A stretch of 28,928 nucleotides of DNA, from positions 1 through 28,928 of IMG/VR virus record IMGVR_UViG_3300043436_005817, one strand, 5' to 3'. The stretch's first letter is position 1. Each line of letters opens with the position of its first letter. This stretch comes from a virus. The notes beneath the pieces are model-generated. The model did no database searches and was not told the origin of the DNA. It was given only the letters and a program-made list of their open reading frames with translations. A program made the translations under genes and the position numbers. Below are positions 2,525 to 9,268 of this stretch, in pieces.

Positions 2525-2650
2525 CCGAGCGAGGCCCGAAACCCACGGTTTTCCGCCATTTACGACCCCCGGGGCCTCGGGTCCTTCCCCGCCGGCCCCA
2601 AGTACGGGGGGCAAAGGCGCATTAAAAGCCCAGCTCCAAGGTGTGAAAGG

Positions 2651-2881
2651 TGTCCGCACTGAAATGTCCGCACCTCCAAAACCCGTCTCTGTCCGCGAGT
2701 TCGCCCGGCTTGATGGCTGCAATGACAAGCTGGTGCGCCGAGCCATAGCCAACGGAAAACTGCCGTCTCTGCCCGACGGTAAGGTCGATGCGAACTTGGC
2801 TGGCAGCGGCTGGCGGAAGCAAAATCGCCGTGCGGCCGGCAGTGCGGACATGCCGAAAATGTCCGCACCAGATGTCCGCAC
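2651..2881. repeat. Cluster of 9-bp TGTCCGCAC repeats; candidate packaging (pac/cosB-type) site
   Basis: Exact copies of TGTCCGCAC are at 2651-2659, 2665-2673, 2860-2868 and 2873-2881. An inverted copy, GTGCGGACA, is at 2842-2850, and a partial copy (TGTCCGCGA) at 2690-2698. They form two groups about 145 bp apart. Direct copies occur in two different codon phases and one copy is inverted, so they are unlikely to reflect a protein repeat. All lie at or within the 5' third of the small terminase gene. Phage packaging initiation sites with repeated terminase-binding elements lie here in other phages (lambda cosB R sites, P1 pac, P22 pac in gene 3). Confidence 0.6.
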
Positions 2882-3302
2882 CTCGTCGCGCCGGAAGAAG
2901 GCGCCGCCCCCGACCGCTGAACGCACCGAGCAAGCGGCCGAAGAACTCTTCTCCGAAGAGGCCGAGAGCTTCCTGGATAACGTGCTCGCCGGCACCTACG
3001 CCGACACCGCGACCGCCGAGCGCGTGAAAGAGAACGCTCTGGCGGCCAAGCATCTACTCGCAGCCCGCCGCGACGCTGGTCATTTGATCGAGATCGGCAA
3101 AGCAGAGGACGTGCTGTTCGAGACCCAGCGGGGCCAGCGTGACGCCTGGATGAATTTCCCGACACGGATCGGGCCCTTGCTGGCGGCAGAACTGGGACTG
3201 GAGGCGGACAAGGTCGTGGAGGCCCTTACGATCCATGTCCACCAACAGCTTGTCGATCTCGGCGACCCTGAAGCCGACTTCGTCGCTCAGCGCGAAGGTT
3301 GA
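2664..3302 (+). CDS. terS: Terminase small subunit (Nu1-like)
   Basis: A 212-residue protein. The N-terminus (PVSVREFARLDGCNDKLVRRAI, about residues 7-28) is a helix-turn-helix of the Nu1/MerR-like kind that recognises the packaging site. A basic linker follows (RTSSRRKKAPPP) and then a helical C-terminal half, probably for oligomerisation and contact with the large subunit. ATG 2664 precedes the first conserved residues. GTG 2643 in the same frame is an alternative, and neither has a strong ribosome site. It overlaps the large subunit gene by 68 bp, the usual order. The frame is open well upstream (from about 2382), but that part lacks domain character and overlaps the preceding gene, so it was left out. 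Confidence 0.8.
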   Translation: MSAPPKPVSVREFARLDGCNDKLVRRAIANGKLPSLPDGKVDANLAGSGWRKQNRRAAGSADMPKMSAPDVRTSSRRKKAPPPTAERTEQAAEELFSEEAESFLDNVLAGTYADTATAERVKENALAAKHLLAARRDAGHLIEIGKAEDVLFETQRGQRDAWMNFPTRIGPLLAAELGLEADKVVEALTIHVHQQLVDLGDPEADFVAQREG

Positions 3303-5373
3303 TCGTCTCCGCGCTTCTGCGCGGAAGGGTTGGACGCCACCGCCGCGTATCAGTGTGCCGGACTGGGCGGACGGTTACCGCAAGCTCGCGAAGGAGGCGG
3401 GCTCGACGTCTGGCAATTGGCGGACCTCGACGGTGGAGGTGGCGCGCGGCGCGATGCTGTCGGTCACCGAGCCGGGCGTTCACCGTATCAGTCTGATGGT
3501 TTGCACCCAGCTGATGAAGACGGCCTTCATCGAGAATACGGTCGGCTACTTCGTTCATCTTGATCCGTGCCCGATGCTGCTGACCCAGCCGAAGGAAGAC
3601 GCGGCCGAACAATTCTCAAAGGAGCGCATTACTCCCCTCATCCGCGCCACGCCGGTGCTGCGAAAGATCTTCGGCCGCAGCAAGACGCGAAACGCAGACG
3701 AGACGCTCTTGTACAAGGCATTCCCCGGCGGCTTCCTCGCGATGGCTGGTGCGGGCAGCCCCGACAACCTCGCCCGCCGCCCGATCCGCGTCGGCATGAT
3801 GGATGAGTTCTCGAAATATCCGATCACTCGCGAGGGCAACCCCGGCGACCTCGTTGACGAGCGTATGGCAACCTTCGCGAACTGGCTGTCAATTCGCACC
3901 TCTTCGCCGACGATCGCCGACGAATGCCTGATCGAGGCCAGCTATAACGATGGCGACCAGCGGCAGGCATCGGTAGAGTGCCCCCACTGCCGGCACCGTC
4001 AGTTTCTCGATTTCTTCCAGCACGTCCATTGGGAAAAGGACGAGGATAGCGGCGAGCATTTCACGGCGCGCGCGGCAATTCATTGCGAGGCATGCGGAGC
4101 CGCGTGGTCAGAAGGTCAACGCCTGATGGCGTTGCAGACCACCCGATGGCATCAGACCAGGCCGTTTCACTGCTGCGGCCGGCGCCATGAGCCGCTGGAG
4201 GTGTATCGCCGCACATGGAGCGACCCGGAGCGCGCGGAGGGGGCGGCTGACCCCGTAGATGTCGTCTGGGACTGGTGGGCGTCAGATCGCTGGGCGGTTT
4301 ACCGGGCGGCCTGTCCCGAGTGTGGTCGCTGGGCAGTCGATAACGAGCATGCATCGTTCACCGCGTCTAAGCTGTTCAGCCCTTGGCCTAAGGACGCCCC
4401 GCCAAAGATCGCGAAGAAGTGGATTGCGGCCAAGGATGACCCGGATAAGCGGGTCACGTTCGACAATACCCAGTTGGGCAAGCCGCATAAGCGGCAGGCG
4501 GCCAAGGACATCGCCGCAGAGGCTCTCATGCGCCGAGCCGAAAACTGGCCCGGCGAGGTGCCGTTCGGTGTCGGGGTCGTTACCGCCGGCCTGGATACCC
4601 AGGACGATCGCGTGGAGATCGAGTTCGTAGGCTGGGGCCATGGGGAGGAAAGCTGGTCGCTCGATCATGTCGTAGTTGATGGTGACCCAGCTACCGACGA
4701 ACTGTGGAAGCGGGTCGATCGCGAGTTGCTGCGGACCTTTCGCCGCAGCGACGGGCGTGAGTTCACGGTCATGGCCGCCTGCATCGATTCGGGCGGCCAT
4801 CATACGCAAAAGGTTTATGCGTTCGCCAAGGCGCGGCTTGGTCGTCTGGTTTTCGCCATCAAGGGCCAGAGCGCCCGAAATGGAGATCGGACGCCTGTCT
4901 GGCCGATCGCCCGGCCCAGCGCCGCGAACCGGACAAAGTATAAGCCGACGATCATAGGGACGAACTCGGCGAAGGATTCGATACGCTGGCGGCTCGGCAT
5001 CGAAGAGCCTGGCCCCGGTTACATGCACTTCCCAGCCAAGCGCGACCTGGGATGGTATGTGCAGCTGGTCGCCGAGCGCCTCTTGACCAAGGTTGTCGGG
5101 GGGCGTCGCTTCACGGTTTGGGATTTGCCCAAGGGCAAAGCGAACGAGGCGCTTGACTGCCGCGTCTATGCTTTCGCTGCGCTAATGGCCCTGATCCAGC
5201 GTGGCATGCGGCTCAATGCGGTGGTCGAGGCGGTTTCTCCTGCCCCGGAAGCGCAAGCGCCCCGTAAATCGACAAAAATAGCGGCTTCTGAGGGAAATTC
5301 GCCCCCTCCAGCGCCGACAAAGCCGCGTAAATTCGCCAATCGCGGCGGCAGCTGGATGAACAGGAGGCGCTGA
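3235..5373 (+). CDS. terL: Terminase large subunit, GpA family
   Basis: A 712-residue packaging motor of the lambda gpA family, which pumps DNA into the procapsid and cuts concatemers. The ATPase half has a divergent Walker A around K95 (VCTQLMKTAF) and a Walker B with catalytic acid, VGMMDEF (D190, E191). The nuclease half includes GLDTQDDR (D454), ACIDSGG (D518) and a late LDCRVYAF acid. Cysteine pairs CPHC (249-252) and CEAC (284-287) suggest a zinc ribbon between the domains; HCC (312-314) and CPEC (360-363) may form a second. At 712 residues it is longer than lambda gpA (about 640). The start at 3235 has GGAGG 12 bases upstream and lies inside the small-subunit gene. Confidence 0.95.
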   Translation: MSTNSLSISATLKPTSSLSAKVDRLRASARKGWTPPPRISVPDWADGYRKLAKEAGSTSGNWRTSTVEVARGAMLSVTEPGVHRISLMVCTQLMKTAFIENTVGYFVHLDPCPMLLTQPKEDAAEQFSKERITPLIRATPVLRKIFGRSKTRNADETLLYKAFPGGFLAMAGAGSPDNLARRPIRVGMMDEFSKYPITREGNPGDLVDERMATFANWLSIRTSSPTIADECLIEASYNDGDQRQASVECPHCRHRQFLDFFQHVHWEKDEDSGEHFTARAAIHCEACGAAWSEGQRLMALQTTRWHQTRPFHCCGRRHEPLEVYRRTWSDPERAEGAADPVDVVWDWWASDRWAVYRAACPECGRWAVDNEHASFTASKLFSPWPKDAPPKIAKKWIAAKDDPDKRVTFDNTQLGKPHKRQAAKDIAAEALMRRAENWPGEVPFGVGVVTAGLDTQDDRVEIEFVGWGHGEESWSLDHVVVDGDPATDELWKRVDRELLRTFRRSDGREFTVMAACIDSGGHHTQKVYAFAKARLGRLVFAIKGQSARNGDRTPVWPIARPSAANRTKYKPTIIGTNSAKDSIRWRLGIEEPGPGYMHFPAKRDLGWYVQLVAERLLTKVVGGRRFTVWDLPKGKANEALDCRVYAFAALMALIQRGMRLNAVVEAVSPAPEAQAPRKSTKIAASEGNSPPPAPTKPRKFANRGGSWMNRRR

Positions 5374-7093: not shown

Positions 7094-9268
7094 ATGACCA
7101 CGCCCCAGCCGGCTCCGCAGCCCCCTGCGGAGGCCGACAGCCGCGTATCTGCGCCGCTGACCCCTGACGGGAAGACGCCCAAGAAGAAGAAGCCGCGTAA
7201 CGCGCCGCCGATCGATGACGCTACCGCCATCATGACGCGGTCCCCCGCCCCGGACGGCGACGCCGCCGAGCGCCGGCAGCCCCAGGTCGGCGGGCGCGGG
7301 ACGCGCAGCGCTGACGTCCGGTCTGCCAGCTACGACCCGAGCGCGCGCACCGTGGAGGCCGTTCTGTCCGCCGGGTCGCCGGTGCGCCGCTACTATTTCA
7401 CCGAAGAGCTTGAGATCAGCGACGACGCGATCGATCTCAACCGCGTCGCATCGGGCGTCTGCCCGCTCCTCGACACCCATAATCAGTATGAGGTGGACGC
7501 GGTCATCGGCCGCATCCTCTCCGTCCGTATCGAGGGCGGCCAGCTGATCGGGACGATCGCCTTCTCCGATAATGAGCGGGGCCGCGAGATCGAGGCGCGC
7601 GTCGTGTCCGGTGAATTGCGCGCCATCTCGATCGGCTACCACGTCAAGCGCTGGCAGATCACGTCCACCGACGAAAATGAACATGAGACATGGCGCGCTG
7701 TCGCCTGGGAGCTTCTCGAAGCCAGTCTCGTCCCCGTTCCCGCCGATCCGAACGCCGTGGTTCGATCAAATCCGGGCTCTCCTGCTCACGGCTCCAATGA
7801 TGAGGACGACGACATGAACCGTAACCTCCCGGGCGGCGGAGTCGCCCATCCCAATGCAAATCGCGGGGCCGCGCCGGCCGCGTCGGAGACCACTGTCGTG
7901 GTGGAACCGAACGGCGAAACCCGCGCCGAGCCGCACTCGCCCGCGCCCCCCGCGCCGGCGCAGGAGCAGCGCGCCGGCATCTCCGCTTCGCGCATCCTCG
8001 ACCTGTGCGCCCGTTCGGAGGATCTCGGCAGCGAGTTTGCCGCCGAACTGATCCGCGCGAACGAGACCACCCCCCTCACCGAAGCGGACCTTCAGTCGCG
8101 CATGACCGACCGCCTGATCAACGCCCGCCAGCGTCCGACCTCCGATACCCGCGCCGGGCGCTCGGGCACGGAAGACGAAGGCTACCGCCTGGCCGTCGAA
8201 GACGCACTGCTGCTGGCAGCCAATCCTTCGTCCCGCGCCGAGGACTTCGGCATCGATGCCCGGCGCGTCGAGGCTGCGCGCGAGTTCCGTGGCCTGACGC
8301 TCATGGAAATGTCGCGCGACTATCTCCAGCGCACCGGCATTCGCCCCCCGACCAACCGTCTGGAGGTCGCGGGCGCAGCGCTCGGTATGCGCGGCGGCGC
8401 GTTGACCACCAGCGACTTCGCCTTCGCGCTGGGCAATGCCGCGAACCGCCGCGTGCGTCGCGCCTTCGAGGTAGCCCCGCAGTCGTTCCGTCCGTTCGTC
8501 TCGACCGGCAGCCTGCCTGACTTCCGCCCCGCGAGCATCATCGGCATGGGCGACGCGCCCGCGCTGCTGCTGGTCAAGGAGAATGGCGAGATCAAGCACG
8601 GGGCCCTGACCGACACCGGCGATACTTACAAGCTCGCGACCTATGCGAGGATCATCCCGATCTCGCGTCAGGCCATCATCAATGACGACAAGGGCCTGTT
8701 CGGGCGCATTCCGACCCAGTTCGCCAACAAGGCGGCCGACCTCGAATCGGACCTTGTCTATAGCCAGCTGATCGGCAACCCGACCATGCCGGACGGGACG
8801 CCGCTCTTCCATGCCGACCATGGCAATCTGGCGGCGTCGGGCACCATCATCAACGTCGCCGCCGTCGGCGCTGGTCGCGCCGCGATGCGCCAGCAGAAAA
8901 CGGCGGAGGGCAACAACATGACGGTTCGCGCCCGCTATCTGATCGTCGGGCCGCTTCAGGAGACCGCTGCCGAGCAGTTCCTGACCGCTGTCGCGGCGGT
9001 TCAGACCAGCAACGTCAATCCGTTCCCGGGCAAGCTCGAACTGGTCGTGGACGAGCGCATCACCGACTACAGCTGGTATCTGTCGGCCGATCCCGACGCC
9101 TTCGACACCATCCTGCTCGCCCATCTGGAAGGCCAGGAGGAGCTGTTCACCGATACGCACCAGAGCTTCGATGTCGATGGCATCAAGTTCAAGGCGCGCC
9201 TCGATGTCACCGCCAAGGTTCTGGACCATCGCGGCTTCTACAAGAACCCCGGCGCGGCGCCGGCCTGA
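7094..9268 (+). CDS. Prohead protease / major capsid protein fusion
   Basis: One 724-residue frame joins two roles that are usually separate. Residues about 70-225 are an HK97-type (U35) prohead protease with catalytic His129 (CPLLDTHNQYEVDAVIGRI) and Ser179 (LRAISIGYHV). Residues from about 241 contain a Pro/Ala-rich linker, a helical scaffold-like region (about 285-420) and the major capsid fold (about 430-724; ALLLVKENGEIKHG, IIPISRQAIINDD, TPLFHADHGNL, LVVDERI). The protease would cut itself and the scaffold-like segment away during maturation. AGGAG (7081-7085) precedes ATG 7094. Such fusions are known in alphaproteobacterial phages. An internal start at 7814 may give protease-free capsid chains. 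Confidence 0.92.
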   Translation: MTTPQPAPQPPAEADSRVSAPLTPDGKTPKKKKPRNAPPIDDATAIMTRSPAPDGDAAERRQPQVGGRGTRSADVRSASYDPSARTVEAVLSAGSPVRRYYFTEELEISDDAIDLNRVASGVCPLLDTHNQYEVDAVIGRILSVRIEGGQLIGTIAFSDNERGREIEARVVSGELRAISIGYHVKRWQITSTDENEHETWRAVAWELLEASLVPVPADPNAVVRSNPGSPAHGSNDEDDDMNRNLPGGGVAHPNANRGAAPAASETTVVVEPNGETRAEPHSPAPPAPAQEQRAGISASRILDLCARSEDLGSEFAAELIRANETTPLTEADLQSRMTDRLINARQRPTSDTRAGRSGTEDEGYRLAVEDALLLAANPSSRAEDFGIDARRVEAAREFRGLTLMEMSRDYLQRTGIRPPTNRLEVAGAALGMRGGALTTSDFAFALGNAANRRVRRAFEVAPQSFRPFVSTGSLPDFRPASIIGMGDAPALLLVKENGEIKHGALTDTGDTYKLATYARIIPISRQAIINDDKGLFGRIPTQFANKAADLESDLVYSQLIGNPTMPDGTPLFHADHGNLAASGTIINVAAVGAGRAAMRQQKTAEGNNMTVRARYLIVGPLQETAAEQFLTAVAAVQTSNVNPFPGKLELVVDERITDYSWYLSADPDAFDTILLAHLEGQEELFTDTHQSFDVDGIKFKARLDVTAKVLDHRGFYKNPGAAPA
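7803..7816 (+). promoter_or_regulatory. Possible internal translation start for free capsid protein
   Basis: AGGA (7803-7806) lies seven bases before an in-frame ATG at 7814, between the protease domain and the linker to the capsid domain, exactly where a separate capsid gene would begin. Starting here would give a 484-residue product (MNRNLPGGG...). The Shine-Dalgarno bases are part of a codon run for Asn-Asp-Glu-Asp-Asp-Asp, so they might arise only from the acidic linker. Confidence 0.4.

Follow-up and report, generated by a model that had tools for sequence, protein, structure and literature searches.

The virus record IMGVR_UViG_3300043436_005817 of IMG/VR was analysed over its whole length of 28,928 bp (hereafter the window), in which a cluster of the 9-mer TGTCCGCAC lies at and inside terS, the gene for the terminase small subunit (TerS), followed by a gpA-type large-subunit gene (terL) and then by lambda-family portal and capsid genes (Table 1). 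We found five exact copies of this word in the window and no others, all of them in the terS start region or the linker codons, against a chance expectation of 0.24 copies, and none of 100 dinucleotide shuffles gave five. A preliminary description, made from the sequence alone, had listed four direct, one inverted and one partial copy with less than one copy expected by chance, and each of these points was confirmed. Its gap of about 145 bp between the two groups matches the roughly 144 bp measured when the partial copy is taken as the left edge (168 bp between exact copies), and its two codon phases for the direct copies hold when counted from the ATG at 2664. Four bacterial genomes, including two of Sphingomonas, were reached via related loci; each has 10 to 42 scattered copies of the 9-mer, and among the matches listed the only close groups of at least three copies are the loci through which these genomes were reached.

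Table 1. Features at the predicted packaging site of the window and in the adjoining terminase genes.
Feature	Position	Strand	Remarks
cosQ-like GGGTCCTTCC	2579..2588	+	lambda: GGGTCCTTTCC
Predicted cosN, 12-nt 5′ cohesive end ~GGGCAAAGGCGC, ± 2 nt	~2609..2620	+	from cosQ-to-cut spacing in lambda (30 nt) and BZS1 (31 nt)
Conserved segment separating cosN from first word (..CCCAGCT..GTGAAAGG)	2621..2650	+	as CCAGCTATG..TTTGAAAGG in relatives and BZS1
R word 1, TGTCCGCAC	2651..2659	+	predicted cos bp 43-51; 5′ of terS start
R word 2, TGTCCGCAC	2665..2673	+	predicted bp 57-65; overlaps ATG 2664 (ATGTCCGCAC); position shared by most relatives
Partial word TGTCCGCGA	2689..2697	+	
R word 3, TGTCCGCAC inverted	2842..2850	-	predicted bp 234-242
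R word 4, TGTCCGCAC direct	2860..2868	+	predicted bp 252-260; linker codons
R word 5, TGTCCGCAC direct	2873..2881	+	predicted bp 265-273; linker codons
terS, terminase small subunit, 212 aa	2664..3302	+	phrog_57 E=2.8e-12; winged helix-turn-helix ~aa 8-52, linker 54-84, helical C-terminal part
Recognition helix codons (D21-A29)	2724..2750	+	covarying residues K22, R25
terL, lambda gpA-type terminase large subunit	3235..5373	+	PF05876 E=1.8e-65, PF20454 E=2.9e-76

TerS of the window shares the family phrog_57 with lambda Nu1; a PDB sequence search with TerS gave no Nu1 match and direct profile comparison of the two gave a weak one, so their kinship rests on PHROGs. The structure model of TerS has a winged helix-turn-helix (wHTH), a helical C-terminal part and a linker with pLDDT<50 at residues 54-74, and its pTM of only 0.38 leaves the domain arrangement uninformative. 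Foldseek neighbours of the N-terminal part were Xis, P2 Cox, BldC and RacA, wHTH proteins of the MerR/Xis/Cox type, all with weak E-values. The right-hand words lie in the DNA that encodes the TerS linker, and it is because these codons specify a disordered segment that the group fits within terS.

DNA-first searches of viral contigs with a pair pattern returned 53 loci, about 34 of them inside terS, and a stricter three-copy pattern, almost never expected by chance, returned 33 viral loci (32 in terS) and 17 bacterial loci (14 in terS). Positions in these relatives are stereotyped, with words at the start codon, inverted copies near +175 and +187 and direct copies near +205 to +250; 88 of 97 relatives have the first right-group copy in inverted orientation, and arrays reach about 11 copies. 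The prophage of Novosphingobium fluoreni DSM 27568 (L082) is a close relative, with a TerS 75% identical to that of the window. The location of the right-group copies within a low-complexity linker would suit an artefact of coding, whereby a favoured linker peptide (SAP, ADT, VRT) yields similar words through codon usage, but we give this explanation almost no credence. Across relatives the words occur in all three codon phases, on both strands and in untranslated DNA; different words, and hence different linker peptides, are found in other clades; and in some clades the array lies entirely outside the gene. A shuffle of codon order that preserves the codons found a significant in-gene array (p≤0.02) in 96 of 167 testable non-redundant TerS genes, a set partly gathered by motif, so that the figure free of this bias comes from the protein-first sample, in which 88 of 106 TerS genes have an array when upstream DNA is included. 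The alignment of very divergent TerS proteins (A2) was too variable for a scan of the collection.

Of 92 array-bearing relatives, 90 have the motif GGGTCC[CT] upstream of terS, against 5.7 expected, mostly 72-78 bp before the first word. One relative has a mapped cohesive end: the accessible text on Serratia phage vB_SspM_BZS1 gives a 12-nt 5′ end, GCATTGCGCGCC, determined by PhageTerm and PCR, and makes no mention of an array (PMC7556043). In this phage (L176, L177), whose TerS is related to that of the window, we found nine GGTAACA words in the window's layout, with the cohesive end 74 nt before terS and, at the right end, GGGTCCTTCC 31 nt before the cut. The spacing from cosQ to the cut in lambda and BZS1 places cosN of the window near 2609-2620, and the array is accordingly predicted from sequence to be the cosB part of a lambda-type cos, cut about 43 bp 5′ of the first word. 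A cut between or beside the two groups had been suggested in the preliminary description; beside agrees with this prediction, between does not. The site is taken as a lambda-type cos and not as a pac site. Two groups of repeats in and at terS do recall P1 pac, to which the preliminary description also pointed, but headful packaging of the P1 or P22 kind is highly improbable in view of the gpA-type TerL, the cosQ- and cosN-like sequences and the 12-nt cohesive ends of BZS1. We likewise give very little weight to the words being operators through which TerS or another regulator controls transcription of the terminase operon and not packaging: left words at the start codon and a wHTH of a type often found in regulators are in keeping with operators, but the near-fixed spacing to cosQ in 90 of 92 relatives, arrays that run 200-270 bp downstream or shift wholly upstream together with cosQ, and the identical layout at the mapped end of BZS1 argue for packaging. 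The words may serve in both packaging and transcription control.

Loss of the word where the protein is kept, which the preliminary description had named as a sign against its proposal, was seen in part, in that TGTCCGCAC is absent from some relatives, but another word stands there in the same positions and layout. Oriented by the left group, the word classes are TGTCCGCA, TGTTCGCA, TGTTTGCA, GGTTGCCA, GGTTGAC, GGTAGCC, GGTAACA, GGTTTCA and GGTTAAC, together with TGTCCCA. All classes have a GT in common, on which the lambda core CGTTTCC aligns with the window's word and which N15 R3 (GGTTGTTG) also has, in a post hoc, exploratory alignment.

These words covary with the recognition helix of TerS. 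Arginine at residue 25 was found in 64 of 64 genes with GT[CT]CGC words and in none of 33 others, and among the R25 genes residue 22 was K, R or G in all 52 with GTCCGC and T or M in all 12 with GTTCGC; within the protein-first subset, all 44 genes whose word contains -CG- had R25, and none of the 42 lacking such a word did. In sets of pairs matched for C-terminal identity (0.62 and 0.61), 91% of 34 pairs with different words differed at residue 25, compared to 3% of 34 pairs with the same word. Other wHTH columns (W50, D21 and R11) likewise separate by word, because whole domains seem to have been exchanged; L148 and L217, for instance, have a 79% shared C-terminal part yet differ in helix and word. 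On a tree of the C-terminal part there were at least 17 word changes, and independent pairs agreed in 6 of 6 cases for R25 (p=0.03) and 3 of 3 for residue 22. For TerS proteins of known helix class without an in-gene array, the expected word was mostly found upstream, namely in the RKT[VI]T clade (L199-L216) and the CSDTLVRRAIT clade (L115-L134). Such joint change of the word and of the TerS segment expected to read it suggests a recognition code that can be read and tested. On balance we favour a rule by which the cosB word of the Nu1/phrog_57 family is anchored on GT, with the next bases set by a few helix residues, the wHTH and word exchanged as one module, specificity readable from sequence, and the array often placed in the codons of a disordered linker.

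We consider it very likely that the repeats act as R sites in a lambda-type cos, bound by the TerS wHTH and positioning TerL at the upstream cosN. The proposal that they are TerS binding sites at the packaging site, already made in the preliminary description, is well supported by conservation, helix covariation and the cosQ/cosN context. It is built on what was observed in the words themselves, their conservation and orientation pattern, the covariation with residues 22 and 25, and the near-constant cosQ spacing, and from these we infer TerS binding, looping, the exact cut and the direction of packaging. In lambda, TerS bound to the R sites holds TerL at cosN, and the left end, which bears cosB, is the first to enter the capsid, according to the accessible text of the source (PMC9026076). 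By this model, the N-terminal wHTH of TerS would bind the TGTCCGCAC words, the two direct words to the right of cosN being R3-like and the inverted and direct words in terS R2/R1-like. Binding probably spans a DNA loop and would place the gpA-type TerL on cosN, where it would make a 12-nt staggered cut; packaging would then proceed rightward into terS-terL, and cosQ would serve termination.

Several points weigh against this proposal. The overhang predicted here differs in sequence from the BZS1 and lambda overhangs, which leaves the cut position with a margin of 2 nt to either side, and the window is a contig whose ends are not at cos. Array scans gave no clear array in the Rhodobacter phages L174 and L175, nor in L158, L170 and L172-L173. 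Tree-independent pairs reach no further than p=0.03, and the residue-level signal largely accompanies exchange of the whole domain, so that contacts of single residues can be separated only in part, for residue 22. The in-gene rR2 of N15 is nonessential according to the accessible text of its source (PMC4669245), and the right group here may therefore be accessory.

Word clusters were also seen away from a complete terS locus. In a Sphingomonas faeni ALB2 contig (L081:6157-6260, reverse; full contig L306/L307), a complete site of cosQ-like sequence and word array adjoins a capsid-type gene, and no TerS of the window's family was found in that genome; the site belongs to a deleted prophage or possibly to a cos-bearing satellite. 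In IMG/VR 3300031413_000345 (L295; cos at 8275, reverse), terS is reduced to its first codons (MSAPSDTVSMREF) and fused to a tail-region gene, which looks like a deletion that runs from terS up to the tail genes and spares cos. An apparently degraded TerS remnant with word array and cosQ lies in the gammaproteobacterium Azotobacter beijerinckii (L074:3948-4182). Seven TGTCCGCAC copies in alternating orientation occupy the 3′ end of a 907-aa open reading frame, which we take to be a primase/helicase, with no cosQ or TerS nearby (L039:8612-8829); five copies lie directly 3′ of a LexA/CI-type-repressor-like gene (L067:6781-6912); and an inverted-direct cluster without cosQ lies 5′ of a ParB/methylase-like gene that itself precedes a distant terS (L078:3409-3457). 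Matches to TGTCCGCACN{3,6}TGTCCGCAC in lysozyme-like genes (L025, L046, L049), in a zinc-ribbon-like gene (L044, L062) and in L040, where they form a 12-bp tandem repeat within a gene, were set aside as they look like unrelated coding repeats, and the pair in L071 looked like chance. Matches in L016, L019, L021, L026, L041, L055, L056 and L057 belong to a single intergenic element that is conserved among low-GC viral contigs, AAAAACATGTCCGCAC(C/G)AAATGTCCGCAC, in an unrelated context; in three loci inspected in detail there was no cosQ beside it, and a Mu-like-looking gene lies near it in L021. In the window itself, a tRNA-Trp (cca) gene at 2084-2159 separates the cos site from the replication-side genes, and a predicted transcription antiterminator (phrog_6386) lies at 1361-1924.

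To our knowledge, the sites that terminases recognise are established for only a small number of phages, most of them enteric. A search of the literature with the words found no phage cos paper among the best-ranked open-access matches, and an earlier description elsewhere is possible. If the helix-to-word rule is true, the packaging sites and specificity of many uncultured cos phages and satellites would be predictable from sequence, and the protein-DNA code would be open to direct test by altering the word jointly with residue 22 or 25. The array would also clearly exemplify a linker-coding segment that at the same time forms a set of DNA-binding sites.

Among known systems, lambda shares with the window a phrog_57 TerS, a gpA TerL, TerS sites in several copies, of which the middle one is inverted, and cosQ, which in lambda is GGGTCCT 30 nt before a cut with a 12-nt 5′ overhang. 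The features of a lambda-type cos are found here as a Nu1-family TerS with a gpA-family TerL (phrog_57; Pfam GpA domains), a cosQ element GGGTCCT (2579-2588) upstream of the predicted cosN and, as a sequence layout, repeated R sites with R3 near bp 50-65 (bp 50-65 in lambda; R word 2 here) and R2 inverted. Lambda has three R copies, all 5′ of nu1 (start bp 191), with the IHF site I1 between R3 and R2, whereas the window has five words and its terS starts at about bp 56, so that the inverted and right words fall inside the gene. BZS1 has the same order of cosQ, cosN, spacer and array, with the array in terS, but a different word (GGTAACA) and helix. The layout most alike is that of N15, for which the accessible text of the source puts R3 close to cosN and gives bp 249-260, within the TerS gene, for an inverted rR2 (PMC4669245), the inverted word of the window being at predicted bp 234-242; N15 TerS starts at bp 89. 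Only one N15 site is critical, rR2 being nonessential, whereas the window has two direct, one inverted and two direct exact words. The simple cosB of N15 combines a single R3, no upstream R1/R2 and an inverted in-gene rR2; the window has two left and two in-gene direct words and is not of this kind, because it lacks a defining feature, the single site. We assign it, as far as sequence can tell, to lambda-type cos with a variant multi-copy intragenic cosB, so that of the probable new packaging site announced in the preliminary description the packaging site stands, as a variant of the lambda/N15 cosB organisation and not as a new kind of site. Packaging specificity in lambda, 21 and N15 depends on the recognition helix, as shown genetically according to the accessible texts (PMC4669245, PMC9026076), and there as here word and helix change together; compared to those three phages, the present family has about ten word classes, at least 17 changes, and exchange of wHTH and word among similar C-terminal domains. 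Lambda cosB, the inverted rR2 in the N15 TerS gene and helix-dependent specificity in lambda, 21 and N15 were already known; what this analysis adds is an intragenic array of many copies and a covariation of helix and word across the family, with its breadth, the number of words and their apparent modular exchange.
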